From a virus, in the IMG/VR virus record IMGVR_UViG_3300017971_000626, positions 1 through 30,813 of that record: a stretch of DNA of 30,813 bases. One strand, given 5' to 3'. Below the pieces are notes generated by a model. That model did not search any database, was not told the DNA's origin, and was given only the letters and a program-made list of their open reading frames with translations. The position numbers and the translations under genes were made by a program. Numbering within the stretch: position 1 is the first letter of the stretch; each line of letters begins with the position of its first letter. Positions 526 through 27,866 of the stretch are shown here, piece after piece.

Positions 526-1826
526 GCAACCAGCGGTTCGAGGTAGCGCAGCGTCGTTCCCGTCGGGATATCCCACGGTCGCGCCACGGCGTTGAGGTTG
601 GAGAGGGAGTCGACGGCAGCCTGCACCTGGTCTTCGCTCTCGAGCGACTCGTACAGCTCGGGCAGAACCGACAGAAGGCTCTCGGGGCGGATGGTCGTGT
701 AGGTCCTCAGCCTCGGCAGACCCGCGGCCTGCTCCGAAAGGTACTGGCGGGTCGCCGCGCGAAGGGCTCGGGCCTCGGAGTAGACGCTGTACTCGATCCC
801 GTCGATGGCGAAGAGCTCCTCGAAGGGAGCCTCCAGCGCCTCTGCGACGTTGAGGATGCTGTTGATCGTGGCGAACTGGGTCGAGGTGATCGCCAGGCAG
901 ACCGACGACGTGACCGCGGCCAAGGCAAGCGAGCGCGCTTCGTCAACCTCTCCGAGCTCGGTGAGGTCCTCTTCGCTGGCGCCGTCGCCGAGGATCTCGC
1001 CCTGGGTCGGCGGCACGTCGCTGTCGAACGTGGTCCCCGTCGCCAACGCCTCGATGAAGGTCACGGCCGGCTTGTCGTTCCCCGAGTCCTGCACCGCGGC
1101 CGAGCCCGTGAGCGGGTCCCCTTGCTGCGACAGCGACGGCACCAGCGAGAGCAATCCCCCAGCGGTGCTCATCACCCTCGACGCGAAGTTCTGCGGCGTG
1201 AGCAGCAGCGACTCGAGCTGCGAGCGAAGGATCTGGATCGACGCGGAGAAATTGTTGACGGGCTCGAAGGCCGCGGAGATCAGCCCCTGCGTGTCCGAGA
1301 GCCACTGCCCGAAGGCGTCGAGGACTGCAAGCGCGCCCTCGGACCAGCCCGGTTCATCAGGCGCGCGCGCACCGAAGCTGAGCACCGAAGCCCGAGAGAG
1401 ACGGCTGATCGAGTTCCTCGTCTCGGCCCCCGCGTCCTCGGACAAGATCAGCTGGGGTCGCCCCTCCAGCATCGTCACCGAGCCTTCGCTGATCGCCAGC
1501 CGCGAGTCGTCGAAGAACTTCAGCGTGACCGCCTCGACCATCCACAGGTCGGTCAGCTCCCCGAGCACCGGGAGCGAGACCGTGAACGGCCCACCCTCGA
1601 GGAACATCGCGCGTAGCTCGAGCGACGCCGTCTCGTAGTCGGAGGTGATCCACTCCCCGTCGCGGATCAACATGAACTCGATCCGATACTGCGAAGGCAT
1701 CTGACCTTGCGGCTCGACGAGCGCGCCGTCGATGTCCGGGGCCTCCTTGACCACGGTCCGCTCCTGGTTGGTGAGCTCGCTGAGACGCACCCATACGGGC
1801 ACTCCGTTGATCGCTCCGCGCTCCAT
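522..1826 (-). CDS. DNA circularization protein N / Mu gp43-like tail protein
   Basis: 434 residues, ATG at 1826 directly abutting the TAG of the spike gene (TAGATG). The N-terminal 100 residues match the PF07157-type pattern: a GV-x-V strand at the start, an E-x-P turn, then a helix (TASLELRAMFLEGG) followed by P-x-LGEL, as in proteins where a GPG-x-L-x-HP-x-LG segment follows. The middle is helical and low in recognisable motifs. The end has a LysM-like or tail-X-like piece (LSNLNAVARPWDIPTGTTLRYLEP), typical of proteins that read N-x-x-xP-x-x-IPxGTxL. In Mu, gp43 lies between the tape measure and the hub; here it lies after the spike. The role is in tail-tip or baseplate assembly; the circularization name is historical. 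Confidence 0.75.
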   Translation of the reverse strand: MERGAINGVPVWVRLSELTNQERTVVKEAPDIDGALVEPQGQMPSQYRIEFMLIRDGEWITSDYETASLELRAMFLEGGPFTVSLPVLGELTDLWMVEAVTLKFFDDSRLAISEGSVTMLEGRPQLILSEDAGAETRNSISRLSRASVLSFGARAPDEPGWSEGALAVLDAFGQWLSDTQGLISAAFEPVNNFSASIQILRSQLESLLLTPQNFASRVMSTAGGLLSLVPSLSQQGDPLTGSAAVQDSGNDKPAVTFIEALATGTTFDSDVPPTQGEILGDGASEEDLTELGEVDEARSLALAAVTSSVCLAITSTQFATINSILNVAEALEAPFEELFAIDGIEYSVYSEARALRAATRQYLSEQAAGLPRLRTYTTIRPESLLSVLPELYESLESEDQVQAAVDSLSNLNAVARPWDIPTGTTLRYLEPLVA

Positions 1827-11755: not shown

Positions 11756-12856
11756 TCAGACGAACTTCTGCCAGTTGGCGGGCGAGCCTTCGACGACGAG
11801 GATCGTGTCCTCGTCGATGACCTGCACGCCGGCGATGCGCGAGCGGACGTGGATCTCGATGGTCTCGGCGTCCTTCTGGTGCGGCTGGAGCATGCGCATG
11901 TAGTAGGGCATGTGCACGACGACGAGGTCCGGGTCGTTGGTGTAGTAGAGCGCGGCGGGGCCATCGAGCGAGTCCGCGGAGCGCATGCCGGGGTCCGAGA
12001 GGATGTTGTGGTCCGGCGTGTTGGCCTCGATGTAGGTCATCAAGGTCGTGTCGCTCGCGAGCGAGAACTGCTCGGTCATGATGTGGTGGTGCTGGATCTG
12101 CGGAAGCAGGCACAGCCCCGGCATGTCCTCCTCGGTCTCCGAGGTGAAGATCTGCCGCTGCGCCGCCCGGTAGTCGTCCCAGATCACATCGGCCGCGGCC
12201 GAGCCCCAGTCGACGGTCGCCGAGCGACGGCGGACGTTGAGGCTGTTGACGATCCCGCGGACCTTGTACTTCTTGTTGCCGCGCCGGATGATGTTGTTGA
12301 TGTTCTGCGCGTGCATCTGCCGGAGCAGACGCCCCTTGCGCTCCATCGCATCGAAGCCCCGCTTGTTGGCCTCCTCGATCTCCTGCATGGTGACCTCGAT
12401 GAAGTCCTTCACGGGGACGAACTTCTGGGTCTTGAGGTCCTCGGCCACGCCCACCGCTCGCTCCGGCGGTGAGCTCGGCGAGGTGATGCCGTCGTCGACG
12501 GGCTCGTAGCGCGCGCCTGCGGTCGCGTACTCGATGAAGCGGTCGCCGGGGTGAACCTCGCGGTCCGTGAGCGTGATCAGCTCGCCGGAGGCCCACAGCG
12601 CCTTGCGGGGCTTCTTGAGGTAGAAGCCCCGGATCATGTGCGTGAGAGCGCACTTGGAGACCTGCGCGATCTGGGCGTCGTTCTTGTGGAAGCCATCGGC
12701 GTGCTTCCACTTGCTGGCCGCCATGATGCCGAACTGCTCGGCGATGCCGTCCCAGTCCTGCTTGACGTTCCCGGGGAGCCGGAAGTCGAGGTGCAGCTTC
12801 CTGCTGTCGGCGATGCGCTGGTAGTGGTCGTGGATCTGCTTGTGAAGGGTAGACAT
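11756..12856 (-). CDS. major capsid protein (DUF2184 family)
   Basis: 366 residues, ATG at 12856 with GGAG about ten bases upstream. The order of segments fits DUF2184 capsids: a long N-terminal part with PVKDFIEVTMQEIEEANKRGFDAMERKGRLLRQ, of which the central helix matches the QE-L-x-x-A-x-x-x-G-x-x-L-x-x-x-K-x-x-A-A pattern; a GIVNSLNV loop; then a VIWDDYRAAQRQIF helix, a SLASDTTLMTYIEANTP segment and the C-terminal beta part VHMPYYMRMLQP. It lies two genes after the DUF2213 gene, the usual position. It would form the HK97-fold shell. Confidence 0.88.
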   Translation of the reverse strand: MSTLHKQIHDHYQRIADSRKLHLDFRLPGNVKQDWDGIAEQFGIMAASKWKHADGFHKNDAQIAQVSKCALTHMIRGFYLKKPRKALWASGELITLTDREVHPGDRFIEYATAGARYEPVDDGITSPSSPPERAVGVAEDLKTQKFVPVKDFIEVTMQEIEEANKRGFDAMERKGRLLRQMHAQNINNIIRRGNKKYKVRGIVNSLNVRRRSATVDWGSAAADVIWDDYRAAQRQIFTSETEEDMPGLCLLPQIQHHHIMTEQFSLASDTTLMTYIEANTPDHNILSDPGMRSADSLDGPAALYYTNDPDLVVVHMPYYMRMLQPHQKDAETIEIHVRSRIAGVQVIDEDTILVVEGSPANWQKFV

Positions 12857-13752: not shown

Positions 13753-14727
13753 TCAGGAAGCCCCGACGCCGTAGGCGTCCCGGGCGATCATGGTCGACAG
13801 CGTCGCGCCGTCGGTGTTGAGGTGCTGGAGGTGGGGGGGGAGCTGGGGCGCGCTCGAGCTCTCGTCGTGCGAGGCCTTGCGCTGCTTGGCCGCCCCGACC
13901 TGCGTGCGGTAGAGGCTGCCGATGAAGCTGTCGAAGAGCGCCGGGTTGTCCTTGTGCGCCTTCTTGGCCTCGTCGATCTCGGCCTTGCAGCCGGGGTCCA
14001 TGTCGATCAGGACCTTGGCCTTCATGTCGGCCACCGTCAGGGTCTTGGTCCCGCGCATGGCGAAGTCCGCCACCGCGTCGACCTTGTTGCTGGTCCCGGC
14101 GGGCATCCCCCCGTCGGCCGCCCAGCGCTTCACCAGGTCCGGGCAGACGCCGGCGATGTCGAGGATCAGGGCCTTCTTGTCGGAGGCGACCCGCGCGCGC
14201 TCGAGGCGGTCCACGGTGCGGCGCAGGCCGACGATCTCGCCCGCCTGGTCGCTCACCTGCGCGGCGAGCTTCGCCTTCTCGGGGTCGGAGGCGGCATCCG
14301 CCTGGGCCTTGGCGGCGGCCTCGGCCTTGTCGCGCGCGGCCTGGGCCTCGTCGCCGGCCGCTTTGGCCTTGGCCTCGGCCTCGTCCTTGGCCGTCTTGAG
14401 GGCGGCCTCGGCCTCGTCGCGCGCCTTGACGTGCTTGTCCCAGGCCGCCTTCTGATCGGCCGTCATCGGCACCACGAGCTTGTCGGCGAGTTCGACCTCG
14501 GACATCTCGGCGCCCATGCCCTCGACCTCTCCCGCCTGCATCTCCAGCGCGGCGGCGAGCTTGGCCATCAGCTCCGGCGCCGGGTCTTCGCCCATGAGGG
14601 TGTACTTGACGACCTCGGCCAACATCGCAGCGAGCTCGGGCGCCAAGGCGTCCTTTTCACCGGCGATCGACTTCGCGTCGTAGATCATCGTGCTGAGGTG
14701 GGCGAGGCTCTTGGTGGAAAGCTTCAT
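13753..14727 (-). CDS. nested scaffold protein from internal start (proposed)
   Basis: The same frame as the protease-scaffold gene, starting at ATG 14727 (codon 273), with GGAG nine bases upstream. The 324-residue product begins MKLSTKSLAHLS right at the protease/scaffold domain border, after a low-complexity T/P linker. Nested scaffolds made this way are known from lambda Nu3 within C and similar genes. Whether it is used here cannot be shown by sequence alone. Confidence 0.5.
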   Translation of the reverse strand: MKLSTKSLAHLSTMIYDAKSIAGEKDALAPELAAMLAEVVKYTLMGEDPAPELMAKLAAALEMQAGEVEGMGAEMSEVELADKLVVPMTADQKAAWDKHVKARDEAEAALKTAKDEAEAKAKAAGDEAQAARDKAEAAAKAQADAASDPEKAKLAAQVSDQAGEIVGLRRTVDRLERARVASDKKALILDIAGVCPDLVKRWAADGGMPAGTSNKVDAVADFAMRGTKTLTVADMKAKVLIDMDPGCKAEIDEAKKAHKDNPALFDSFIGSLYRTQVGAAKQRKASHDESSSAPQLPPHLQHLNTDGATLSTMIARDAYGVGAS

Positions 14728-15543
14728 ATCGGTGGTCTCCGTCGTGGGCTTCGGTGCGCTGTCGCGCGGGGTCTTGGTCGGGTTGGCGAGGAGGACCTGC
14801 CAGGCCCCGCCGTCGATCTTGATGCAGGCGAGAGGGCCAGCTCGGCCCTCCTCGACCACCGCGAGGTGGTTGATGCGGATGTCGGTCTGGAGGAACTCGT
14901 ACTCGGACCCGTCGAAGTCCCTGCTTCCAGCTGGTGCTTCAACGATGATGACCGTGTATCCGGCGCTCAGCTCGAGCTTGCCGTCACGGATCTTGATCAG
15001 CGTGGCGAGGTCACCGACGAGGATCGTCAGCTCGACGTAGCGATGGCCGTCCTCGGCAGGCATCGTCAGCTGGGCGTCTTCGCCGCAGCTCCCCTTGGCG
15101 TACTTGGTGTAGTTGTCGGGGATGACGAGCTCGGGGGGGTGGTCGTCGGTGACCGGCTTGAGGCCCCAGCTCTTGAGGCTCTCCGCGTCGCCGACCTCCT
15201 TGACCGAGCGGTACTCGCCCCACGTGCGCAAGCCGTCGCTGTAGTACTGGACCCCCGTTCGCGCGGCCCAGACCTTGAGCTTGAGGAAGCCGTCGTGGGT
15301 CAGGTAGTCGTCAAAGCCATCAGCTCGCAGCGCGTCTGCGGCGGCTTTCCAGGCCGCGCCGCCCGCTCGAGCGGGGGACGTCCGCGAGCGCCAGTCGCCC
15401 GTGGACCGGGATGCGGCGGCCTCACCCGCTGCTGCTGCCCGCGCGACCGCCTGCTGCTGCTTGTCGTCGAGGTGCAGCGGCATCCTCGACCAGCGGTAAA
15501 CGCTGTCGCGCTTCGGTCGTGGCGTGCGGTCGGGCTCGGTCAT
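13753..15543 (-). CDS. prohead protease-scaffold fusion (DUF2213 family)
   Basis: 596 residues, ATG at 15543 four bases after the stop of the 45-residue ORF. Residues about 75-250 are DUF2213-like: GVQYYSDG, EYRSVKEVGDAESLKSW, then PVTDDHPPELV (His135), KLELSAGYTVII (Ser193) and IRINHLAVVEEGRAG (His226). By analogy with herpes-type prohead proteases these three may form the active site; that is inference. The part after residue 270 is an A/K/E-rich coiled coil with a helical end, typical of scaffolds. It should be processed and lost from mature heads. The first 60 residues are variable and basic. An internal ATG at codon 273 may give separate scaffold. Confidence 0.85.
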   Translation of the reverse strand: MTEPDRTPRPKRDSVYRWSRMPLHLDDKQQQAVARAAAAGEAAASRSTGDWRSRTSPARAGGAAWKAAADALRADGFDDYLTHDGFLKLKVWAARTGVQYYSDGLRTWGEYRSVKEVGDAESLKSWGLKPVTDDHPPELVIPDNYTKYAKGSCGEDAQLTMPAEDGHRYVELTILVGDLATLIKIRDGKLELSAGYTVIIVEAPAGSRDFDGSEYEFLQTDIRINHLAVVEEGRAGPLACIKIDGGAWQVLLANPTKTPRDSAPKPTTETTDMKLSTKSLAHLSTMIYDAKSIAGEKDALAPELAAMLAEVVKYTLMGEDPAPELMAKLAAALEMQAGEVEGMGAEMSEVELADKLVVPMTADQKAAWDKHVKARDEAEAALKTAKDEAEAKAKAAGDEAQAARDKAEAAAKAQADAASDPEKAKLAAQVSDQAGEIVGLRRTVDRLERARVASDKKALILDIAGVCPDLVKRWAADGGMPAGTSNKVDAVADFAMRGTKTLTVADMKAKVLIDMDPGCKAEIDEAKKAHKDNPALFDSFIGSLYRTQVGAAKQRKASHDESSSAPQLPPHLQHLNTDGATLSTMIARDAYGVGAS

Positions 15544-15746: not shown

Positions 15747-16883
15747 TTATCGGCGCGCGGCGAAGGGCAACTGCAGCAACTCCGCGGTGATCGGAGCGCC
15801 CATCCCAGCGAAGAGAGCACCGCGCTCGACAGCGTTTTTGAGCTCCCGGACGTTGCCTGGCCACAAATAGCCGAGCATCGCCGCGACTGCGTCTGGTGCG
15901 AACGGTGACTCGAGCGGCCGCCATCCAGACTCCGATGCGTAGGACGCGTAGAACCTGCGAGCCAGCTCGAGAACGTCGCCCTCGCGGTCCCGCAGCGGAG
16001 GGATCTCGACGTGGACCTTGTTGATGCGGTTGAGCAGGTCGCGACGAAAGTCGGGCTCGCGAAGGTCGCGCCAAGTCGCGGAGACCAGCCGAACATCATC
16101 GAGGCCCCCGCCAAGAACCCGCAGCAATGACGCCTGATTCTCGGCATCGAGCTCGCCGATCTCGTCGAGAAAGAGAGTCCCTCCGGCGGCCTCCGCCGCC
16201 CTCGCCTCGACCTCCTCGCGCGCATCGCCTCGGATCGCCGCGCAGTTGATCGCTACGAAGCTGCCCTTCCGACCCGACGTCGAGTGCAAGCCCGCGGCGA
16301 CGCCCTCCTTGCCGGTCCCGGTCTCGCCCGTGACCAGCACGGGGAAATTCGATGGAGCGACGCGCTCGAGCACAGCGAAGACCTCGCGCATCGATGTCGA
16401 CGCGCCATAGATCTCGCCGAACGATGAGGCCTCGCTCAGCCCCAGGCCGGGCGCTGGAACCCCGGCGGGGGCCGTCGACTCGATCGCCATCGCCAGCCAG
16501 GTAGCGAAGGACCTGGCGTTCGACAAGATCCCTGGCTCATCCTCTGGGATCGTCAGCTCATGAAGCGCTGCGGCCTCCGCCACGAACCCGTGGGTCTCGA
16601 GCAGCGACATCAGCGGGTGCGCGATCATGTTGTGCGTCGTCCAAGCCTCTGCGTCGTCGAGAAGCGCGACGAGCTCGTCGAGGCGGTCGGCCGCCTGGCC
16701 CTCGAGCTCCTCTTCGAGTTCCTCGGCTTCCTCCACCGACTGGTTGAGCGCCTCCCACACCGACGGCCAGTGGAAGCGCCAGCGGGACCCCACCTTGCGG
16801 CCCTCGATCTTTCCTTGCTCCCGCAGCTTGAGGACGGTCGTCGGGCTGACCCCGAGCCGGCGCGCGATCTCGGCAGCCGGCAT
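15747..16883 (-). CDS. nested HTH-AAA+ product from internal start (proposed)
   Basis: In-frame ATG at 16883 (codon 456 of the portal fusion) begins MPAAEIARRL, exactly at the start of the helix-turn-helix. The sequence GAGGGCGAGCTC precedes it, placing a Shine-Dalgarno-like GAGG eight bases upstream. Use of this start would give a free 378-residue DNA-binding ATPase in addition to the fused portal. The domain border and the start coincide, which supports but does not prove separate production. Confidence 0.45.
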   Translation of the reverse strand: MPAAEIARRLGVSPTTVLKLREQGKIEGRKVGSRWRFHWPSVWEALNQSVEEAEELEEELEGQAADRLDELVALLDDAEAWTTHNMIAHPLMSLLETHGFVAEAAALHELTIPEDEPGILSNARSFATWLAMAIESTAPAGVPAPGLGLSEASSFGEIYGASTSMREVFAVLERVAPSNFPVLVTGETGTGKEGVAAGLHSTSGRKGSFVAINCAAIRGDAREEVEARAAEAAGGTLFLDEIGELDAENQASLLRVLGGGLDDVRLVSATWRDLREPDFRRDLLNRINKVHVEIPPLRDREGDVLELARRFYASYASESGWRPLESPFAPDAVAAMLGYLWPGNVRELKNAVERGALFAGMGAPITAELLQLPFAARR

Positions 16884-18248
16884 GAGCTCGCCCTCGGGGA
16901 CCGGAGGCTTCGCGCCCTCGGCCTCGGCCACCGCCTCGGCCACCTTCCGTTCCTCCGCCACGCGCTCCCGGTAGGCGGTCATGTCCGTGTAGTTGTCAGC
17001 CAGGCGCGGATCGCTGTGGATCACCTCGGCCGGCACCCCGCTCTTCGCGTCGTTGACCCGGGCCTTGGACTCCGACTCCCGCTGCTTCGCCTTCTCCGCG
17101 TCCGACTGCTCGGCGATCGTGTTCATCTCGACCGTGTAGGCGGACGGGATCTCGACGGGTTCGTTGTCGATGATCCCCGCCCGCTGGTGCAGCCCGAGAT
17201 CGAGGTCCGTCGTCTTCTCGATCACCGGCGTCAGCATGTCCACCGCCATGCCACCGACCGCGTCGTAGAACGCCTTGATCGGCCCGCTGTTGTCGCCGAG
17301 GTTGCCGACCGCCTGCATGAGAATCAGCTCTTGCGGTGCGCCCGTTCCAGCCAAGAAGAAGAACTTCTTGCCCTCCTCGAGGTCCGCAAGCCCAGCCACA
17401 GTCCGCCCCGTCTCGAGCAGCTTGTCCCCCTTCTCCAAAGTCAGCAGGCTGTCGTTCTCGAGGTTCTCCGCGACCTGCTCAAGATACGCGCGAAGCTCGT
17501 CAGCCTCTGCGCTGTCGGGACTTGCAGCCGCTTTTCGAAGACCCTCGAGTTCCAGCGAGAGAAGGGACATGCTCCTGATGATCGTGGAGATGTCCTTCTG
17601 CGAGCCCTTCCAGTCGCAGAAGGACTCGAAGACCCCCTCGAGCATGCTCGGCGGCCACCCCGTGATCGTGTTGATGAAGCCAGGGTCTCCGAAATAGCCG
17701 AAGCCCGGCGGGACCTCTCCCGCAACAACAATCCCAAGTCGAGACCGATGGATTCGCTGCCGGTTGATGCTCGCTCGATTCTCAAACCACGTCGCGGTCG
17801 CGTAGTTCTTCCCCGTCTCGGGATAAAGCCCGTAGGCCGACATCGGCACCAGCTTGTTGATTTTCCTGACCCTGTCGGGGTCGAGCGGGGTAGCTGGGTC
17901 GTTGAAGACATCGTCGACGTCGTAGTAGATCCCGGCGCCACCGAAGACGAAGGTCCAGATAGAGGCGAGCCTCATCGCCCGCTTCAGCTTCAAGGTCTCG
18001 AGGTCGCTTTGAACCCGGGCCCAGTTGTAGGGGACGTCCGAGTTCAGGTAGGTCCACCCAGACTTCGTCATCAGCGTGGCCATGCGATTCACCCACTGCT
18101 TGATGACCCCGTTCTGCCAATAGAAGGCCCAGGCCACACGAGGGTGCATCCACCCGCCCGTGATCCCCCGGTCGCCATCACGCAGGATCTCGCCGAGCTC
18201 GGTGAAGGCCTCAGAGAGATCGTCGCTTCGTTGTTGGAGTTCAGTCAT
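15747..18248 (-). CDS. portal protein (DUF1073 type) fused to helix-turn-helix and NtrC-type AAA+ ATPase
   Basis: 833 residues in one open frame, ATG at 18248 overlapping the terminase stop as ATGA. Residues about 30-440 are the portal: QNGVIKQWVNRMATLMTKSG (46-65), RIHRSRLGIVVAGEVPPG (165-182), GWPPSMLEGVFESF (197-210), LTLEKGDKLLET (269-280), FLAGTGAPQELILMQAVGNL (298-317). Residues 456-501 are a MerR/excisionase-type helix-turn-helix (AAEIARRLGVSPTTVLKLRE). An acidic helix follows, then a segment with THNMIAHPLMSLLETHGF (538-555). Residues about 605-830 are an NtrC-type AAA+ domain: Walker A GETGTGKE (641-648), Walker B GGTLFLDEIGEL (689-700), sensor I SATWRDL, arginine-finger region FRRDLLNRIN, sensor II WPGNVREL (796-803). 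The GAFTGA loop is missing: only 19 residues separate NCAA from GGTLF. The portal must form the packaging ring; the added part has no known counterpart in portals. Confidence 0.85.
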   Translation of the reverse strand: MTELQQRSDDLSEAFTELGEILRDGDRGITGGWMHPRVAWAFYWQNGVIKQWVNRMATLMTKSGWTYLNSDVPYNWARVQSDLETLKLKRAMRLASIWTFVFGGAGIYYDVDDVFNDPATPLDPDRVRKINKLVPMSAYGLYPETGKNYATATWFENRASINRQRIHRSRLGIVVAGEVPPGFGYFGDPGFINTITGWPPSMLEGVFESFCDWKGSQKDISTIIRSMSLLSLELEGLRKAAASPDSAEADELRAYLEQVAENLENDSLLTLEKGDKLLETGRTVAGLADLEEGKKFFFLAGTGAPQELILMQAVGNLGDNSGPIKAFYDAVGGMAVDMLTPVIEKTTDLDLGLHQRAGIIDNEPVEIPSAYTVEMNTIAEQSDAEKAKQRESESKARVNDAKSGVPAEVIHSDPRLADNYTDMTAYRERVAEERKVAEAVAEAEGAKPPVPEGELMPAAEIARRLGVSPTTVLKLREQGKIEGRKVGSRWRFHWPSVWEALNQSVEEAEELEEELEGQAADRLDELVALLDDAEAWTTHNMIAHPLMSLLETHGFVAEAAALHELTIPEDEPGILSNARSFATWLAMAIESTAPAGVPAPGLGLSEASSFGEIYGASTSMREVFAVLERVAPSNFPVLVTGETGTGKEGVAAGLHSTSGRKGSFVAINCAAIRGDAREEVEARAAEAAGGTLFLDEIGELDAENQASLLRVLGGGLDDVRLVSATWRDLREPDFRRDLLNRINKVHVEIPPLRDREGDVLELARRFYASYASESGWRPLESPFAPDAVAAMLGYLWPGNVRELKNAVERGALFAGMGAPITAELLQLPFAARR

Positions 18249-19924
18249 CGTCGTCGCTTGCTCCTTCGTCGGCGTGGCCTCCTGGGCCGAGCTGCTGCTG
18301 GTGGTGATGGGCCCTCGGAGTCGACCGCTTGCTCGAGCAGCGCGAGGGCATACGCAGCATCAGCGTGCCTTTTTTGCTTCCGCTCGTCACGCGTCGTCCG
18401 CTGAGGCGCCATGAACTTCCCGTTGGGGCCCCGGTAGACGCTCACGAGATCGTCGACCAACGGGGCGAAGTGGTGAGGGAGCTGCAGGGCCAGCTCCTGG
18501 AGGCGCTTCTCGATTTTCAAAAATTGTGGCTCGTGCCACTTCTGGTTGATCTTGACGATCTGGACCTTCCCTCGGGTCCGCCTGTGGGCCTGCTCGGCCG
18601 AGTTCGACCCGTTGCCGTTGCCGTCGGCGCAGGCCGCCGACAGCGAGTGGAGCCGGTCCCAGATGTAGTCGGCGATCATGTCCTGCTCCGGCCAGCCGAC
18701 GTTCTCCAGCTCAATCCAAAACCGCAGACGCCGACGGAGGTCCCGGCGACGAACCGCAAAAGGCCATGAGCTCAGGTTCAGCGTCCGACCGTAGTCGAGC
18801 CCCCCAAAGACCGGGAGGCCATCGGCATTGACCCCCTCGAGTACCGGTGAGAGGTGGGTGTCGAGCCAGCGCTTGAGCTCCACCGCTCGAGCATCTGGGT
18901 CCGCGGCGTCCTCGTCCTCGTCTTCCCACGAGAGCGAGGACTCCTCGACGAGGTCGTTGTTGACCCACATCCGTGGTCGTTCTCCACCCTTGATCTCAAT
19001 GATCGTGCACTCCTGCGGACCGATCGTCGCGCACTTCGATACGAGAGCTCGAGGAAGAAACGAAGACCCTCCCCTCTCTGGGATGCACTCGCACTCTTGC
19101 TTGAAGCGGTGCTTCCCGTAGTAGTCGCGGAGCCACTCGAGCCACCCGGCCTCGGCTTCTTCGCTCCACTCCTTCCCCGCCTTCGCGCAGATCCTCTTGT
19201 ACAGCCCGTCGGCGAGCGCGTCGTAGATCGTGACCTCGTGGAGGGACGCACGCTGCTCGCCGGTCTTGATCGCCTCGACGAGCCGGTAGAAGCCGTTCTC
19301 GGTGCCCAGGTAGGTCGAGATGAACGCCAGCCTGCCGTCCCAGACCAGCAGGCCGCCGGCGGCCGTCATGATCGCCTCGAGGTCCTGCTGCGCCGCCTCG
19401 TCGATGATCGCGTACGCGCCGCTCTTCCCGCGGAGACGAGCTGGTCGCGAGGGGAGTGCGTAGATCGAATAGCCGCTCGGGAAGTCGATGCGAAACGCGA
19501 GGATGCGGTCACCGTCGTCGTCGTCGAACCAGTCGTCCTCGTCGAACTCCAGCGCCCCCGCGTTGACCTCGTCGATGTCCCGGAGCTCGTGGACCTCGAT
19601 CATGTCCTCGATCACCGGCGTGATCACTCGGATCCAGTCCGCGCACTTGTCGATGAAGTCACGCGCGTCCTCGCGGCTCGTCGACATGAAGTAGACGTCC
19701 ATGCCGCACCCTGGGACCCCCGCCCCCGGCCGCGTCGCAGCAACCTCGACCGCCTCGTAGGCCGTCGTCCAGGTGATGCCGATCTGCCTTGACTTGGCGA
19801 TCAGCTTCATCGGCGAGCGGTCGTAAAACCAGTCCCGCTCGTAGGCGAGGAGCGCTGCCCAGCGGTCTTCAACCCAGCCTTCGTCGTCGTAGAGGTTGTC
19901 CTCTGCGTGGGCCGCGGCTTCCAT
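18245..19924 (-). CDS. terminase large subunit (Mu gp28-like)
   Basis: 559 residues from ATG 19924; a TTG nine codons upstream (19951) is possible but less likely. The ATPase half has a Walker A of the gp28 kind (KLIAKSRQIGITWTTAYEAV), an adenine-side region VYFMSTSREDA, and Walker B with catalytic Glu (AYAIIDEAAQQDLE). The nuclease half begins with the RNase H-type motif FGGLDYGRTLNLSSWPF, where the second acidic residue seen in many relatives is N, and ends with RHADAAYALALLEQA. The last 30 residues are P/R-rich and strongly basic. The enzyme packages DNA through the portal encoded by the next gene (4 bp overlap). No small terminase is evident nearby. Confidence 0.9.
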   Translation of the reverse strand: MEAAAHAEDNLYDDEGWVEDRWAALLAYERDWFYDRSPMKLIAKSRQIGITWTTAYEAVEVAATRPGAGVPGCGMDVYFMSTSREDARDFIDKCADWIRVITPVIEDMIEVHELRDIDEVNAGALEFDEDDWFDDDDGDRILAFRIDFPSGYSIYALPSRPARLRGKSGAYAIIDEAAQQDLEAIMTAAGGLLVWDGRLAFISTYLGTENGFYRLVEAIKTGEQRASLHEVTIYDALADGLYKRICAKAGKEWSEEAEAGWLEWLRDYYGKHRFKQECECIPERGGSSFLPRALVSKCATIGPQECTIIEIKGGERPRMWVNNDLVEESSLSWEDEDEDAADPDARAVELKRWLDTHLSPVLEGVNADGLPVFGGLDYGRTLNLSSWPFAVRRRDLRRRLRFWIELENVGWPEQDMIADYIWDRLHSLSAACADGNGNGSNSAEQAHRRTRGKVQIVKINQKWHEPQFLKIEKRLQELALQLPHHFAPLVDDLVSVYRGPNGKFMAPQRTTRDERKQKRHADAAYALALLEQAVDSEGPSPPAAARPRRPRRRRSKRRR

Positions 19925-20008
19925 CGGTTCTCGATTATCTACCAATTCCAAGCACCTACGGTCTGCGCGCGACGCGAGCCCCGCCCGGGGGCTACCCTAC
20001 CGAGCAGG
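19925..20008. promoter_or_regulatory. short divergent intergenic region before TerL and the membrane-protein pair
   Basis: 84 bp between the divergent starts at 19924 and 20009. It should hold the late promoter for the minus strand and a promoter for the plus-strand pair. The part at 19931-19950 is AT-rich relative to the surroundings, and a GCCCC-GCCC-GGGGC hairpin-like stretch lies at about 19979-19992. No clear -35/-10 pair is assigned. Confidence 0.35.
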
Positions 20009-20374
20009 ATGATCTTGCTCGCCGAGACCCTGACAACCGAGACCGGCGTCAGCGTGGGCCTGCTCCTGTCCATCGCCGGACTCGTCGGGGGCGGCTTGAT
20101 CACCGGCATCGTTTCGCGGGTGCTGCACAACGTCAGCATCAAGCACCTGCGAGCGGACGTCGAGGAGCTGACCACATGCCTACAGGACCGCACCAAGCGG
20201 TTGCAGGAGCTCGAGACCAAGGAGCGCGTGCGCGAGGCCATCAAGGAGGACCGCGAGGCCCAGGCCAAGTTGATCGCCACAGCGATCATCGAGGCCCAGG
20301 CGCGCAGCCCCCATGCGCCGACCGCCGATGCCGCTCGATCGGGCACGCGACCGTACTCGAGGCCGGGACGATGA
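20009..20374 (+). CDS. small membrane protein with coiled-coil tail, possible lysis gene 1
   Basis: 121 residues, ATG at 20009, on the strand opposite to its neighbours. One hydrophobic segment (VSVGLLLSIAGLVGGGLITGIV, about residues 15-36) is followed by a charged helix (about 45-95) of heptad character and a short polar tail. The stop overlaps the start of the next gene as ATGA. The pattern, one N-terminal membrane helix with a cytoplasmic or periplasmic coiled coil, is seen in some holin-like and spanin-like proteins, but no family is recognised. No Shine-Dalgarno sequence is well placed; TTG at 20015 is an alternative start. Confidence 0.65.
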   Translation: MILLAETLTTETGVSVGLLLSIAGLVGGGLITGIVSRVLHNVSIKHLRADVEELTTCLQDRTKRLQELETKERVREAIKEDREAQAKLIATAIIEAQARSPHAPTADAARSGTRPYSRPGR

Positions 20375-20679
20375 ACACTGCGACCTTCCCCAGCGCACGG
20401 CTTGCAGCCGTCGACGAGGACCTGCGTCTCGTCGGTCGGCTGCTTGCCATCTCCGGCCGCGTGAACATCGTCTCCGCGCTCGTCGTTCTCCTGGCCATCG
20501 CCCTCACGTGGGTGGCCATCGCTGATCACCCAGCTCACCGAGTCGGCTCGCCATCGGCAGCGCTGGAAGAGCGCAGCCTCGGGCCCAGCTCTTCGAGCCG
20601 CGACGCGATCGCCTCCAGCACGTCGCCGCCGCCGAGCTCGCCGATCACCGACTCGATCCTCGCCACCGCCTCTCGGTGA
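20371..20679 (+). CDS. small membrane protein, possible lysis gene 2
   Basis: 102 residues, ATG at 20371 in ATGA overlap with the preceding membrane gene. About 33 polar residues are followed by a membrane helix (IVSALVVLLAIALTWVAIA, about 34-52) and a low-complexity S/P tail. The last 145 bp overlap the end of a minus-strand gene (20535-20828), so the tail sequence may be dictated by the opposite gene. The tight coupling of two single-span membrane proteins suggests a holin/antiholin or similar pair. There is no lipobox Cys, which argues against an outer-membrane spanin. Confidence 0.55.
   Translation: MNTATFPSARLAAVDEDLRLVGRLLAISGRVNIVSALVVLLAIALTWVAIADHPAHRVGSPSAALEERSLGPSSSSRDAIASSTSPPPSSPITDSILATASR

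Positions 20680-20824: not shown

Positions 20825-20828
<4 letters not shown>
20535..20828 (-). CDS. hypothetical helical 97-residue protein
   Basis: Starts at GTG 20828, overlapping the stop of the RQC-type gene as GTGA, which sets the start; the upstream open frame is a shadow. The sequence starts MTRKLREVVSFYLDREVVDE and continues in charged helices (AVARIESVIGELGGGDVLEA). No family is recognised. As the last gene of the replication operon it may be a small regulatory or accessory protein. Its 3' end is convergent with, and overlaps, the plus-strand membrane gene. Confidence 0.6.
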
Positions 20829-21838
<1,010 letters not shown>

Positions 21839-21869
21839 GCGCTGGCGAAGCCAGCGGTGCGACCGGAGC

Positions 21870-22580
21870 TCAAGTTCCACCGCCCGCCCCCAGATCGAGC
21901 CTGCCTTGGGCTGCGACTCGGCCCAAGCACGGCATGACCCGGAGCTCAATGCGAGGCCGACGAGCATCGACGAACTTCCGCGCTCGGACCTCAACCACCC
22001 GCGCATCCTCGTCGATCAGATGCGCGAGCTCGAGCAAGTCGATGGTGAGCTTCAGCGGCGCATCGACGTCGCCCTTGGGCAGGTCCTCCACGCGAGGAAG
22101 GTGCCGCCTGCTGGGCCAGTAGCTGTCGATCTCAACCTCGAGCATCCCCGCCTTGGAGATCGTGTCCGCGAGCTGCGGCGAGGTCGAGACCGCATCCCAG
22201 ACGATCTTGGCCGCAGTCTCCTTCGCCCGCTTCACGGCCCCGAACTCGACGATCCTCGGCTTGCCCTTGACGACCGCGGCCTTCTTGGAGTTGTTGATCG
22301 CCAGCGCCCCGGCCCAGTGCTTCGGGAGTTTCTTTTGGCCCGGGTCGCCATCCAGCACGACACGAAGAACATCGGGCCTCGCTCCGCGTAGCAGCCCAAG
22401 CAGGCCTTCGAGCTCTCCAATCCGCTTCATGAGAGCAGCCGTGCAGTCTCGGCACACGCCGTCGTTGGTGTACAGGTCGCGGTCGTGGTCCTCGCAACGG
22501 CGCGCGACCGTGGCGACGTCGCGCACGCTGTGCGGGTCCTCGGGAGTAGCCGGAGGCGCCGCGTAGGGGTCGAGGATCAC
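21870..22580 (-). CDS. RusA-type Holliday junction resolvase with N-terminal Cys/His cluster
   Basis: 236 residues from GTG 22580, in GTGA overlap with the preceding stop; the longer open frame upstream is in the other gene. The N-terminus has RRCEDHDRD and GVCRDCTAALM, a possible C-H-C-C zinc site (residues about 29-46). From about residue 145 the RusA pattern is seen: MLEVEIDSYWP, LPKGDVDAPLKLTIDLLELA (Asp171, Asp173; relatives have DxDN), and LIDEDARVVEVRARKFV (Asp190/192; relatives have DD-x-Q-V). The acidic triad of RusA is thus kept, although Asn is replaced by Ala. RusA cuts four-way junctions and suits a phage with RecT-type recombination. The zinc cluster is not usual for RusA. Confidence 0.72.
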   Translation of the reverse strand: MILDPYAAPPATPEDPHSVRDVATVARRCEDHDRDLYTNDGVCRDCTAALMKRIGELEGLLGLLRGARPDVLRVVLDGDPGQKKLPKHWAGALAINNSKKAAVVKGKPRIVEFGAVKRAKETAAKIVWDAVSTSPQLADTISKAGMLEVEIDSYWPSRRHLPRVEDLPKGDVDAPLKLTIDLLELAHLIDEDARVVEVRARKFVDARRPRIELRVMPCLGRVAAQGRLDLGAGGGT

Positions 22581-23015: not shown

Positions 23016-23429
23016 GTGGACCTGAGTGCTAGGGAAGCCTACGGCCATGAAGTTGGTTCTGCGAGCGTGCTTGTCTATCCCGAAGTCGAGATCCCGCCCG
23101 AGGCCCAGACCCTCCTCGATCTGGTGCACCGAGAACTTGGGGTTGACCTCGGGGCGCTGCGCGCAGCGGATCGCTCAAGGAGCTCGATCCGGCAGGCGGT
23201 CTTCCTCTTCATGCGCGACCTCGGGCTCTCCTACCCGAAGATCGGGGCGATCATGGAGCGCGACCACTCCACGGTGATCTTCGGCTGCAAGCGGTGCTTG
23301 GCCGCGACCGAGGCCCGCAAGATCTACCTGCGGCTGCGCGAGCTGCAATACGGCGTCCCCGCGAGCTACGAGGAGCGAGCCGTCCCCACGGTCGCGGTCC
23401 CGCCCGACGCCGTCTCGTGCTCTGCCTAG
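23016..23429 (+). CDS. stand-alone DnaA domain IV-like DNA-binding protein
   Basis: 137 residues on the plus strand within a minus-strand operon. Residues about 33-100 match DnaA domain IV: the first helices LDLVHRELGVDLGALR, then the basic loop RSRSSIRQAVFLFMRDLGLS, YPKIGAIMERDHSTVIFG and CKRCL. In DnaA the equivalent is RQ-x-A-x-x-L-x-x-x-l-x-x-S-x-x-x-I-G-x-x-F-G-G-RDH-T/S-TV-x-h-A-x-x-K; the RDHSTV signature and its DNA-contact Arg are intact. No AAA+ domain is present. It could bind DnaA boxes on host or phage DNA, as initiator, loader or competitor. The GTG start at 23016 is uncertain; GTG 23067 is an alternative. The stop overlaps the convergent metallopeptidase-like gene by 4 bp. Confidence 0.82.
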   Translation: MDLSAREAYGHEVGSASVLVYPEVEIPPEAQTLLDLVHRELGVDLGALRAADRSRSSIRQAVFLFMRDLGLSYPKIGAIMERDHSTVIFGCKRCLAATEARKIYLRLRELQYGVPASYEERAVPTVAVPPDAVSCSA

Positions 23430-24445: not shown

Positions 24446-26599
24446 TCACGTTGCTGAGACGAGCCGATGGGTGAGCCGGGTCCATCGCCTCGTCGCCTCG
24501 GTCGTCACCGCCCGCTTGATGGCGTCGCGATGCCCGACCAGGATGCAGAGTTTTTTGGCTCGGGTTATTGCAGTGTACAGCAGGTTCCGGCTGAGCATGC
24601 GGTTGTTGCGAAGAACAGGGACCAGCACCGCCGGAAACTCACCGCCCTGGCTCTTATGAATCGTCATCGCAAAAGCCAAACTCAAAGAGCGTGAATCAAA
24701 CCTGTTATAGGTTTTCATCGCGCCGTCGAAGTCGACGGTTAGTTCCGACTCTCCAAATTCGGTGACCGTCCCAATGTCGCCATTGAAGACATTGCGCTCA
24801 TAGTCATTGCGCATTTGCATCACTCGGTCGCCCACGCAAAACCTACGCTTTTGAGCTGCCCAGAAAGAGTCCGCATGGCGCCCCGCGTAGCTCGTCTGGA
24901 GCTTCGAGTTGAACGCCTCGGTCCCGACTGGCCCTCGGTGCGTCGGGCACAAGATCTGGATCTCCTGGGTCGGCTCCATGTCGTAGGCTGCCGGGATCCG
25001 GGCCGCGGCCATGTGCAGGAGCTTCCGCTGAGCCGATTCTGGCGTGCTTGCGTGGAGGATGTAGAACTGGCCTCGGTTGCCGAGACTGCGGTCGTCAGGC
25101 TCGAGCTCTTCGCCGGCCAGGATGCGGTGGGCGTTGGTGACGATGGACGAGCCCTTCGCCTGCCGGAAGACCTCCTGCAGCCGCACGACCGAGATGTTGA
25201 CGCCTGCGGAAGCCGCCTCCAGCAGGTCGGGCAGGATGTTTCCAGGCCCCACCGAGGGCAGCTGGTCCGCGTCCCCAACCAGCAGGACGCGGTGCTCGGT
25301 GGTCATGGCAGCGAACAGCGCGTCGGCAAGCTCGAGGTCAAGCATCGAGACCTCGTCGACGATGACGAGCGACGCTGGGAGGCTGTTCGACTCGTCGAAG
25401 TGAAACTCCCCGGTCCCCGGGACCGGCCGAAGGAGACGATGGATCGTGCTTGCAGGCCTCCCCGTCGTCTCCGTGAGCCGCTTCGCCGCGCGTCCCGTCG
25501 GCGCGCAGAGGGTCACCTCCCAGCCTGCTCGCTCTGCCATCGCCAACACTGCGGCCACCGCGGTGCTCTTGCCGGTCCCGGGCCCACCCGTAAGGACCGT
25601 CACCCCCGAGCGCGCCACGGCGGCAACCGCAGCTCGTTGACCGTCGGAAAGATCGTCGGTCGTGCTCGAGTCCCAGACCGCCCGAGCTGGTCGCGTCATC
25701 GACAGGATGTTCCGGGCCACACGCGCCTCGGTCCTGTCCGTGCTCGAGAGAAGCAGCAGCCCAGCCTCGTATCGAAGCGCTCCGCAGAACGCCAGCCTCT
25801 CGACTGCCTCGTCCACGACCGCACGCCGAACACCGAGGAGGTCGCTCGACATCGTCTCGAGCTCATCCGGCGGCAGGCCGCAGTGGCCATCGAGGCGCTG
25901 CTGCCTCATCGTGTGGATCACCCCAGCCTCGACGCGCTCGGAGTGCTCGGGGTCCAGTCCCGTCGCGCGAGCAAACTTCTGCGCAAGCCTGAACCCAAAC
26001 CGCTCAACCCTGGCTGCGACAACGAAGGGGTGGTCGTCGAGCATCGACATCGACCGCTCGCCGAACTCCCGGTGCACCGCCTTCGCCAAGCTCGCCGGGG
26101 CCCCGACCGAGATCATGCGATTTTTGATCTTGGCTACCGGTCCGCTCTGCTGCCGATGATGCGCGCGAATCTTTCCCAGCGCCTTGGGTCCGACTCCTGG
26201 AATATGGAGAATGTCCTCGATCGACCTGTCGAGCACGTCCCAGGTTCGATCTCCGAATTGCTCGACTATGCTCTCGGCCGTCCGAGCGCCAATGCCAGGG
26301 TAGGTCTTGAGGCGCGCGATCGTCTGCTCCTCCGACGTCGGTGCCCGCAGCTCGAGCACGTCGAACTTGAACTGGCGACCATGTTTGCGATGGTCGGCCC
26401 ATCGCCCCCGCGCGATGAATTTCGCTCCCTTTTCGACGTCCCCACCGAGCTCGCCAACCAGCGCCTCGTCGGTCCCATCGATCGTCGCCACCAACACCGA
26501 GAACCCAGAGTTCGGGTCGCGGTGCCTGATCCTCACCACGACACCCTCGACCTCCTCGATCCTCTGGTTCCTCATCGGGCTGCGCTTCCGGGCATTCAC
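24446..26599 (-). CDS. RecD2-type superfamily 1B DNA helicase
   Basis: 717 residues from GTG 26599, whose GTGA overlaps the preceding stop. ATG at 26575 and TTG at 26617 are alternatives. The N-terminal OB-like part (VEGVVVRIRHRDPNSGFSVL) is followed by helix-hairpin-helix segments (YPGIGARTAESIVEQFG and ILHIPGVGPKALGKI). Motor motifs are Walker A TGGPGTGKSTAVAAV, Ia CAPTGRAAKRL, II VIVDEVSMLD, III LLVGDADQLPSVGPGNIL, V/VI SLAFAMTIHKSQGGEFP and LLYTAITRAKKLC. The protein matches stand-alone RecD2 (about 720-740 residues), a 5'-3' helicase that acts without RecBC. With YqaJ and RecT it suggests phage-driven end processing. Walker and motif III residues are intact, so it should be active. Confidence 0.93.
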   Translation of the reverse strand: MNARKRSPMRNQRIEEVEGVVVRIRHRDPNSGFSVLVATIDGTDEALVGELGGDVEKGAKFIARGRWADHRKHGRQFKFDVLELRAPTSEEQTIARLKTYPGIGARTAESIVEQFGDRTWDVLDRSIEDILHIPGVGPKALGKIRAHHRQQSGPVAKIKNRMISVGAPASLAKAVHREFGERSMSMLDDHPFVVAARVERFGFRLAQKFARATGLDPEHSERVEAGVIHTMRQQRLDGHCGLPPDELETMSSDLLGVRRAVVDEAVERLAFCGALRYEAGLLLLSSTDRTEARVARNILSMTRPARAVWDSSTTDDLSDGQRAAVAAVARSGVTVLTGGPGTGKSTAVAAVLAMAERAGWEVTLCAPTGRAAKRLTETTGRPASTIHRLLRPVPGTGEFHFDESNSLPASLVIVDEVSMLDLELADALFAAMTTEHRVLLVGDADQLPSVGPGNILPDLLEAASAGVNISVVRLQEVFRQAKGSSIVTNAHRILAGEELEPDDRSLGNRGQFYILHASTPESAQRKLLHMAAARIPAAYDMEPTQEIQILCPTHRGPVGTEAFNSKLQTSYAGRHADSFWAAQKRRFCVGDRVMQMRNDYERNVFNGDIGTVTEFGESELTVDFDGAMKTYNRFDSRSLSLAFAMTIHKSQGGEFPAVLVPVLRNNRMLSRNLLYTAITRAKKLCILVGHRDAIKRAVTTEATRRWTRLTHRLVSAT

Positions 26600-27429
26600 G
26601 GTGGCCCCCGGTTCCAAGGCAACTGCTCAAGCGACGGACCTGTTCCTGTCGGCTGCAGAAGGTCTGCATCCGGCGCTGGCTCCACGCGAAGCATGCGACC
26701 CTCGGGGAGCTGATCGGCCACGACCACGACCTGCTCAGGCGCGGGCGACCTCGGCTTGCTGATGCGCCCCGCGATCTTGGTCTCGGCGTGCTCGACCGCC
26801 AAGCTGAACCACGCCCTCGGCGGAGAGACCAACACCGTCCTCCCCTCTCGACGAAGAAGCCCAAGCCGCTCAAGCTCGCGGACGCGCTTCGTCCACGATG
26901 CGTTGTCTCGATGCCCGATGAACCTGCGCCAGTCGGACATCGAGCACCCGAGCTCAGACCACTCCTCGAGGGGGCATCCGGCGGCGTCGCTGGCGAGCAT
27001 GAAGGCCCCGACCATCGCGGTCACCAGCGCCGCCGGGCGAGCCCGCAGCGACCGGGCCAGCGTCCACAGGTTGCCCACATCGAACCCGCCTGGCGCCAGG
27101 GCCTTGCACGGCGCGTGCAGGCGCATGTCGATCAGCCGCCCCACGGGCCTGCGCGCGCCGGTCCTACGGCCCGTCCTGGTGGCAACGAGGTCCGCGTCGC
27201 GGAGCGCCGCCATCGCTCGCTCGATCTGCCGCTCGTCGAGCCTCGTGCGCGATGCCAGGGTCTTGTTGCTGGGCCACGGGTTTTGACCCGGGCGCCCCGG
27301 CCATCGGGTGTACGAGAGCAGGACGAGCCGCAGGAGCCTCGCGTGCTCCGAGCCGACTCCGGCCAGGCGGCATCCACGCGCGCCGAGGGAGGCCGTCTCG
27401 TGTCGGTGCAGGGTCAGGTCGGCCCCCAT
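26596..27429 (-). CDS. double helix-turn-helix protein, possible replication initiator
   Basis: 277 residues, ATG at 27429, overlapping the small Cys/His protein by 16 bp. An N-terminal winged helix-like part (about 28-85) reads RLLRLVLLSYTRWP and WPSNKTLASRTRLDERQIERAMAALRDADLV, with the recognition helix in the second stretch. A further segment (about 155-200) reads CSMSDWRRFIGHRDNASWTKRVRELERLGLLRRE, a second winged helix-like part. Two such domains are seen in Rep3-type plasmid initiators and DnaD/O-type phage proteins, but no family signature is clear. The gene lies just downstream of three direct repeats and upstream of a helicase gene, which suits an initiator. Regulation of transcription is the other possibility. 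Confidence 0.6.
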   Translation of the reverse strand: MGADLTLHRHETASLGARGCRLAGVGSEHARLLRLVLLSYTRWPGRPGQNPWPSNKTLASRTRLDERQIERAMAALRDADLVATRTGRRTGARRPVGRLIDMRLHAPCKALAPGGFDVGNLWTLARSLRARPAALVTAMVGAFMLASDAAGCPLEEWSELGCSMSDWRRFIGHRDNASWTKRVRELERLGLLRREGRTVLVSPPRAWFSLAVEHAETKIAGRISKPRSPAPEQVVVVADQLPEGRMLRVEPAPDADLLQPTGTGPSLEQLPWNRGPP

Positions 27430-27716: not shown

Positions 27717-27770
27717 TTCGGCGTTGGTTGTACCAGCTCGAGGCTGTTGATCGAAGATTTGAATTCTTCC

Positions 27771-27787
27771 CCTCACCTAAGACCGGG
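27771..27787. repeat. direct repeat copy 1 (CCTCACCTAAGACCGGG)
   Basis: First of three identical 17 bp units; copies 1 and 2 share AG as well, extending the match to 19 bp. The start-to-start distance to copy 2 is 45 bp. It lies next to an AT-rich stretch. Confidence 0.9.
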
Positions 27788-27815
27788 AGCTTCGCGCGCG
27801 CGCGGCCTGGAACAC

Positions 27816-27832
27816 CCTCACCTAAGACCGGG
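27816..27832. repeat. direct repeat copy 2 (CCTCACCTAAGACCGGG)
   Basis: Identical to copy 1, followed by the same AG. Copy 3 begins 23 bp further on, roughly two helical turns; copy 1 is 45 bp before, roughly four turns, so all three could lie on one face of the DNA. Confidence 0.9.
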
Positions 27833-27838
27833 AGACCC

Positions 27839-27855
27839 CCTCACCTAAGACCGGG
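27839..27855. repeat. direct repeat copy 3 (CCTCACCTAAGACCGGG)
   Basis: Identical 17 bp to copies 1 and 2 but followed by CG instead of AG, because its last G begins the palindrome GCGAACGTTCGC. Confidence 0.9.
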
Positions 27856-27866
27856 CGAACGTTCGC
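27855..27866. promoter_or_regulatory. 12 bp palindrome GCGAACGTTCGC
   Basis: Perfect palindrome directly after the third direct repeat. It resembles a dimeric repressor or initiator site. The halves GAAC and GTTC recall LexA sites, but the four-base spacer of a Gram-positive type SOS box is absent. Confidence 0.5.

Follow-up and report, generated by a model that had tools for sequence, protein, structure and literature searches.

Background

Portals are among the most conserved machines of phages. Assembly proceeds without an ATPase in other portals, and at the packaging vertex the known ATPase is the terminase. Additional domains on head proteins have been described in the form of portal-fused effectors (PMC5512222) and MuF-fused toxins (PMC5576092), for both of which delivery into the host has been proposed. 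The terms 'NtrC' and 'AAA' are absent from the former report. The portals of phages E217 and Pa193 are themselves 765 amino acids long (PMC10329688, PMC11042391). The C-terminal barrel of the E217 portal projects into the head and the residues after 528 lack resolved structure (PMC10329688), and no density is seen for residues 529-765 of Pa193 (PMC11042391), which corresponds to 237 C-terminal residues without resolved structure. As for regulators with NtrC-type AAA+ domains, the GAFTGA motif is essential for the contact with sigma-54, and the relatives that lack it (TyrR, DhaR and HupR) depend on sigma-70 (PMC3162934).

Here we analyzed a linear DNA window of 30,813 bp, corresponding to a whole IMG/VR record, in which a portal protein fused to a helix-turn-helix (HTH) and to an NtrC-type AAA+ ATPase had been predicted. 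That prediction also held that portals carry no extra domains, a claim that is too strong in view of the portal-effector fusions and of the 765-residue portals of E217 and Pa193.

Results and discussion

The fusion is a real and conserved protein

The fusion gene encodes 833 amino acids in one unbroken frame on the minus strand, from the ATG at 18248 to the stop codon at 15747 (Table 1). The N-terminal part matches Phage_portal_3 (PF06381) over residues 41-393 (E 9e-25, profile positions 5-351 of 357) and the portal family phrog_146 (E 2e-33). It is followed by an HTH that matches HTH_17 at residues 459-493 (E 3e-8) and the excisionase family phrog_66 (E 2e-6). The C-terminal part is composed of Sigma54_activat (residues 613-747, E 5e-25) and AAA_lid_14 (residues 753-827, E 2e-14), and matches the NtrC-like family phrog_7998 (E 1e-26). 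In the PHROGs collection, the portal and AAA+ parts fall into separate families. The arrangement of portal, HTH and AAA+ in this order is far beyond chance. An insert of approximately 60 residues (525-585) with the motif THNMIAHPLM is present only in the window member and absent from all other aligned members; it matches a family of unknown function (phrog_36447) and returned no match in named phages.

Table 1. Features of the fusion gene, its neighbors in the window and its homologs on other contigs
Feature	Coordinates	Strand	Basis
Whole fusion gene portal-HTH-AAA+ (P0001), 833 aa	15747..18248	-	12 further distinct homologous fusions
Portal domain, residues 41-393 (Phage_portal_3/DUF1073, phrog_146)	17070..18128	-	Pfam, PHROGs, model match
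Helices beyond portal core, residues 394-446	16911..17069	-	End of the stretch 20-446 aligning to E217 portal 99-526
Excisionase/MerR-like HTH, residues 456-501	16746..16883	-	HTH_17, phrog_66, phrog_57
Insert with THNMIAHPLM motif, residues 525-585	16494..16676	-	phrog_36447, E 1e-4
NtrC-type AAA+ core, residues 613-752	15993..16412	-	Sigma54_activat and structure match
Walker A GETGTGKE, residues 641-648	16305..16328	-	GE[T/S]GTGK in 12/12 members
GAFTGA/L1 deletion site, residues 670-688	16185..16241	-	Comparison with NtrC domains
Walker B TLFLDE, residues 691-696	16161..16178	-	LFLDE in 12/12 members
Two arginine fingers, R735 and R741	16026..16046	-	12/12 members
AAA+ lid, residues 753-827, including WPGNVREL 796-803 and sensor II R801	15768..15992	-	AAA_lid_14; R801 in 12/12 members
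Terminase large subunit, upstream of portal	18245..19951	-	phrog_2, E 2.5e-23; Terminase_6N
Head maturation protease (DUF2213), downstream	13753..15543	-	phrog_530, E 2e-41; PF09979, E 3e-30
Major head protein	11756..12856	-	phrog_264, E 2e-28
Homologous fusion P0002, 754 aa			On two contigs
Homologous fusion P0003, 748 aa
Homologous fusions L020, L021=L022 and L023, 779-780 aa
Homologous fusions L079, L081, L084, L085, L086 and L087, 774-788 aa
Homologous fusion L181, 778 aa

Scans of IMG/VR identified 12 other distinct full-length fusions of 748-788 amino acids on 14 other IMG/VR contigs, which brings the total to 13 distinct proteins on 15 contigs when the window is included. Three of the fusion-bearing contigs are 81-97 kb long. 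A scan of IMG/VR seeded only with portal motifs returned nothing but fusion contigs. A scan seeded with the large terminase subunit (TerL) returned fusions in which TerL is about 49-50% identical; the inspected loci with a TerL identity of 33% or below contained none. The uninterrupted frame and the 12 further proteins confirm that portal, HTH and NtrC-type AAA+ are one real, conserved protein, in support of the original prediction. An assembly join or a frameshift merging two genes is so improbable as to be negligible, given that 14 other, independent contigs share the fusion, that the 11 other fusions aligned are 40-52% identical to the window protein and that no stop codon separates the parts. 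Together with the profile match, which excludes a lack of NtrC homology, this removes both of the objections that had been foreseen.

We also looked for the fusion outside this set of contigs. None was present in 50,697 named phage records, where the matches reach the AAA+ part only; among the matches listed, many fall within annotated bacterial regulators. Nothing in named phages or plasmids spanned 80% of the fusion query, the portal part as sole query had no match in named phages, and patterns of portal or TerL retrieved no prophage relatives from the bacterial genome collection. Since no paper describing a portal with a sigma-54/NtrC domain was found in the literature searched either, the fusion appears to be undescribed, again as predicted.

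In closely related pairs of fusions, the dN/dS ratio is 0.0-0.5, and mostly 0.1-0.4, in the portal, HTH, AAA+ and lid. Every part is therefore being kept, and purifying selection acts on all domains of the fusion. Distant pairs among the first six members share 40-58% identity in the portal and 51-62% in the AAA+ plus lid, the AAA+ being the better conserved of the two; the linkers (residues 401-452 and 502-601) are variable. In a comparison with 15 NtrC-type domains from other contigs of the viral collection, the fused AAA+ domains formed one clade (support 100/99). The portal and AAA+ trees are broadly congruent and agree in their main groups, which is most simply explained by a single fusion event followed by joint descent.

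The ATPase site is retained and the sigma-54 loop is lost

The positions originally assigned to Walker A (641-648), Walker B (around 690-697) and WPGNVREL (796-803) are right. Walker A and B, N668, T725, R735, R741 and R801 are invariant in all 12 aligned members. By analogy with PspF, we take N668 to be the asparagine of the glutamate switch, T725 the sensor I threonine, R735 and R741 the arginine fingers, and R801 sensor II. Every portal found in the lineage bears a DNA-binding domain and an AAA+ domain that looks catalytically intact. The GAFTGA motif occurs in none of the 12 members. Compared with ordinary NtrC domains, the segment ESELFGHxxGAFTGA (L1) is deleted in all of them, and 11 also lack the L2 segment, which lies between Walker B and sensor I. 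The remaining member, L079 (3402-5765), is also devoid of GAFTGA and retains L2, and therefore looks like an intermediate in the loss of the loops. The homology to NtrC that had been proposed is well founded (Sigma54_activat, E 5e-25), but the proposed full set of motifs is not, as the GAFTGA segment is deleted and L2 is shortened. Six residues separate the end of the lid (residue 827 of 833) from the stop codon, with no Fis-type or other C-terminal DNA-binding domain after it.

Because GAFTGA is deleted in all members and L2 in 11 of 12, the protein is predicted to be an ATPase that forms oligomers and has no role as sigma-54 activator, contrary to the activator-like role that had been considered. 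A classical sigma-54 activator carried by a phage would agree with the Sigma54_activat match and with PspF, FlrC and NtrC1 as best structure matches. We nevertheless dropped this explanation as highly improbable, since the motif essential for sigma-54 contact (PMC3162934) is absent in every member and there is no C-terminal Fis-type domain. The fusions rather provide a clear-cut example of an NtrC-type ATPase with the sigma-54 loop removed and the ATPase site retained.

The extension is predicted to lie inside the head

We modeled the fusion with AlphaFold2 on 28 sequences, with the row of L010 partly misaligned, and obtained an overall pLDDT of 76; an earlier model from 6 sequences was poor (pLDDT 54). 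In the 28-sequence model, the AAA+ and much of the portal reach a pLDDT of about 90 or above, and the HTH wing and the linkers are poor. Residues 610-832 match PspF, FlrC and NtrC1 (Z 20-25). The portal part matches the portals of Pam3, E217 and Pa193 (8hds, 8fvh and 9b41) with Z 21-22 over 331-377 residues, although with a high rmsd (8-22 A), and residues 20-446 align to residues 99-526 of the E217 portal (Z 21.7). The HTH starts at residue 456, just beyond the point where the E217 structure ends. Because it begins there, after a barrel directed into the head, the extension should by homology with E217 lie inside the capsid, and up to twelve copies of it may be present in the head at the DNA exit. 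This placement does not support the suggestion that the extension helps the motor, as it follows a barrel that in E217 points into the head and away from the terminase.

Genomic setting of the fusion

The start codon of the fusion overlaps the stop codon of the large terminase (ATGA), and the gene sits between TerL and the genes of the head protease and major capsid protein. With the terminase overlap before it and the DUF2213 protease after it, the fusion therefore holds the normal place of a portal. Genes of a contractile tail are also present (sheath, tape measure, Mu gp36- and gp45-like). The window and the structural modules of two relatives of approximately 95 kb (G001 and G002) are colinear, so that the window probably represents part of a large contractile-tailed phage.

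The fusion itself has no MuF domain, and MuF (PF04233) was detected in none of the 11 fusion-bearing records at E <= 0.01, although some of these records are fragments and a divergent MuF could escape detection. In L010, where TerL is 32% identical, the portal is 510 amino acids long without the extension and MuF lies directly after it. On present data, this suggests that the extension takes the place of MuF.

We also considered whether the HTH replaces the terminase small subunit (TerS). It matches the TerS family phrog_57 in 8 of the 11 records, with an E-value in the window (5e-4) weaker than that of phrog_66; each of the 14 control genomes has phrog_57 matches as well. The two ~95-kb relatives have in common a further HTH protein with weak TerS matches (L164:8218-9045, 32% identical), which lies far from TerL in both. 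This shared protein speaks against the HTH of the fusion as the only TerS and weakens TerS replacement as its main role; TerS is probably separate from the fusion.

Several other genes in the window and in its relatives were recorded. A 393-amino-acid protein (20825-22006, minus strand) carries an RQC winged-helix domain (E 1e-10) without the context of a RecQ helicase; the domain follows an Ala-Pro repeat linker, and a homologous stretch is found in L002. Two small overlapping open reading frames with hydrophobic segments, holin-like by eye, lie between the terminase and the early genes (19907-20679, plus strand). A small protein matching Bac_DnaA_C (E 3e-9) is encoded at 23016-23429 on the plus strand, opposite to its neighbors, and an open reading frame of G002 (74750-75973) resembles DnaA domain IV by eye. 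Both large relatives encode a sigma factor that is ECF-like by eye (G002 59549-60196, minus strand; G001 20976-21563), with a mutual identity of 58%. L087 (421-1638, plus strand) and G002 (588-1025, minus strand) have lipoprotein-like genes in which Gly-Asp repeats form long tracts (GDGDGD). Genes of this kind occur in myxobacteria of the Nannocystis type, possibly a hint at the host.

Possible functions of the portal-tethered ATPase

The fusion means either that a head protein has an additional task, as regulator or as delivered effector, or that in some phages a second ATPase operates at the portal. Of the originally proposed roles, an effect on host transcription by a route other than sigma-54, or the sensing of assembly, may apply. 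In our estimate there is close to an even chance that an ATP-driven regulator ring in the portal couples the virion's DNA gate to control over the cell's transcription or DNA, be it as a regulator delivered by the virion or as a sensor of the assembly state. If the regulator reading is true, it would represent a new route for a part of the virion to control the cell.

The explanation that we tentatively prefer, without calling it probable, is a DNA-binding ATPase tethered to the portal inside the head and acting after delivery into the next cell. We chose delivery because domains fused to portal and MuF proteins have been suggested to act as effectors after delivery (PMC5512222, PMC5576092). 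The HTH-AAA+ module inside the head would replace the MuF-type proteins of related phages. Because the mature head has no ATP supply, the module would work in the cytoplasm. Most likely it would be detached from the portal, perhaps through cleavage of the variable linkers by the neighboring DUF2213 protease, and would enter the next cell along with the DNA. There it would assemble into an ATP-bound oligomer, which the HTH would direct to DNA or transcription independently of sigma-54, by analogy with TyrR, DhaR and HupR acting with sigma-70. Several points weigh against this sequence of events. The AAA+ and its linker must pass the neck or be released first, and a folded AAA+ of 25 kDa may need to be unfolded to pass. 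The MuF of these phages may be too diverged to be detected, and several of the records represent fragments. Packaging could be the purpose of the HTH, as its weak and unspecific TerS-type match may indicate. Finally, an ATPase unable to work inside the capsid might just as well be active in the producing cell, prior to assembly.

This last point leads to an assembly-coupled regulator, which we consider unlikely but a serious candidate. Unassembled portal would bind phage DNA through the HTH and ATP-driven oligomerization and would regulate late transcription or replication, until incorporation into the procapsid hides the module and thereby signals that heads are made. ATP is present in the cytoplasm before assembly, an HTH plus an ATPase is the architecture of a regulator, and attachment to the portal would be a natural readout of assembly. 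The relatives without GAFTGA are sigma-70 regulators (PMC3162934), in further agreement with this possibility. On the other side, we know of no phage in which the portal is used as a regulator, and no operator was identified. The only repeat seen that might serve the HTH is CTCACCTAAGACCGGG, which occurs three times without mismatch (23-nt repeat units) at 27767-27857 of the window, candidate iterons or operators for which about 0.3 chance matches are expected with 3 mismatches allowed; it adjoins a replication-initiation-like gene (26596-27429, minus strand) and shows no link to the fusion. Nor was a conserved internal start for a free regulator found: separate translation of HTH-AAA+ was considered from a candidate ATG at M456 of the window protein and from an ATG preceded by GAGG in P0002, and was rejected, as P0003, L020 and L023 have no conserved start or Shine-Dalgarno sequence.

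It is likewise doubtful, while deserving attention, that the extension is a device for head assembly or packaging, in which the HTH would anchor or recognize phage DNA at the portal and the AAA+ would drive or time the formation of the portal ring, DNA organization or the start of packaging, in part as a substitute for the terminase small subunit or MuF. The position of the gene directly after the terminase, the phrog_57 matches of the HTH and the MuF found in L010 where the extension stands are all consistent with such a device. The lack of specificity of phrog_57 and the other TerS-like HTH protein in both ~95-kb relatives argue against it, as does the assembly of other portals with no ATPase.

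Comparison with known systems

The fusion shares with the portals of Pam3, E217 (gp19) and Pa193 (gp19) the same fold and family (Phage_portal_3/DUF1073). The E217 and Pa193 portals also have a long C-terminal part, up to residue 765, past the barrel directed into the head. This part has no resolved structure in E217 and Pa193, and is an HTH plus an AAA+ ATPase in the fusion.

With the bacterial enhancer-binding proteins PspF, NtrC1, FlrC and ZraR, the fusion shares the fold of the AAA+ core and lid, Walker A and B, the glutamate-switch asparagine, the two arginine fingers and sensor II. Unlike them, it has no GAFTGA loop, a shortened L2 and no C-terminal Fis-type HTH; its HTH is on the N-terminal side and a portal is attached. 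An NtrC-type AAA+ without a working GAFTGA is also found in TyrR, DhaR, HupR and VpsR, which are sigma-54-independent regulators. These four are free bacterial proteins, whereas the fusions have lost the L1 segment completely and, in most cases, L2 too.

The polyvalent effectors fused to portal or MuF proteins (PBECR, 2H, InPase and MuF toxins) carry an extra domain on a head protein, as the fusion does. They are nucleases, transferases or toxins, while the fusion has an HTH and an AAA+ ATPase and no MuF domain. A portal with an added domain is therefore of an already known kind; a portal bearing an HTH and an NtrC-type AAA+ appeared neither in named phages or PHROGs nor in the papers searched.
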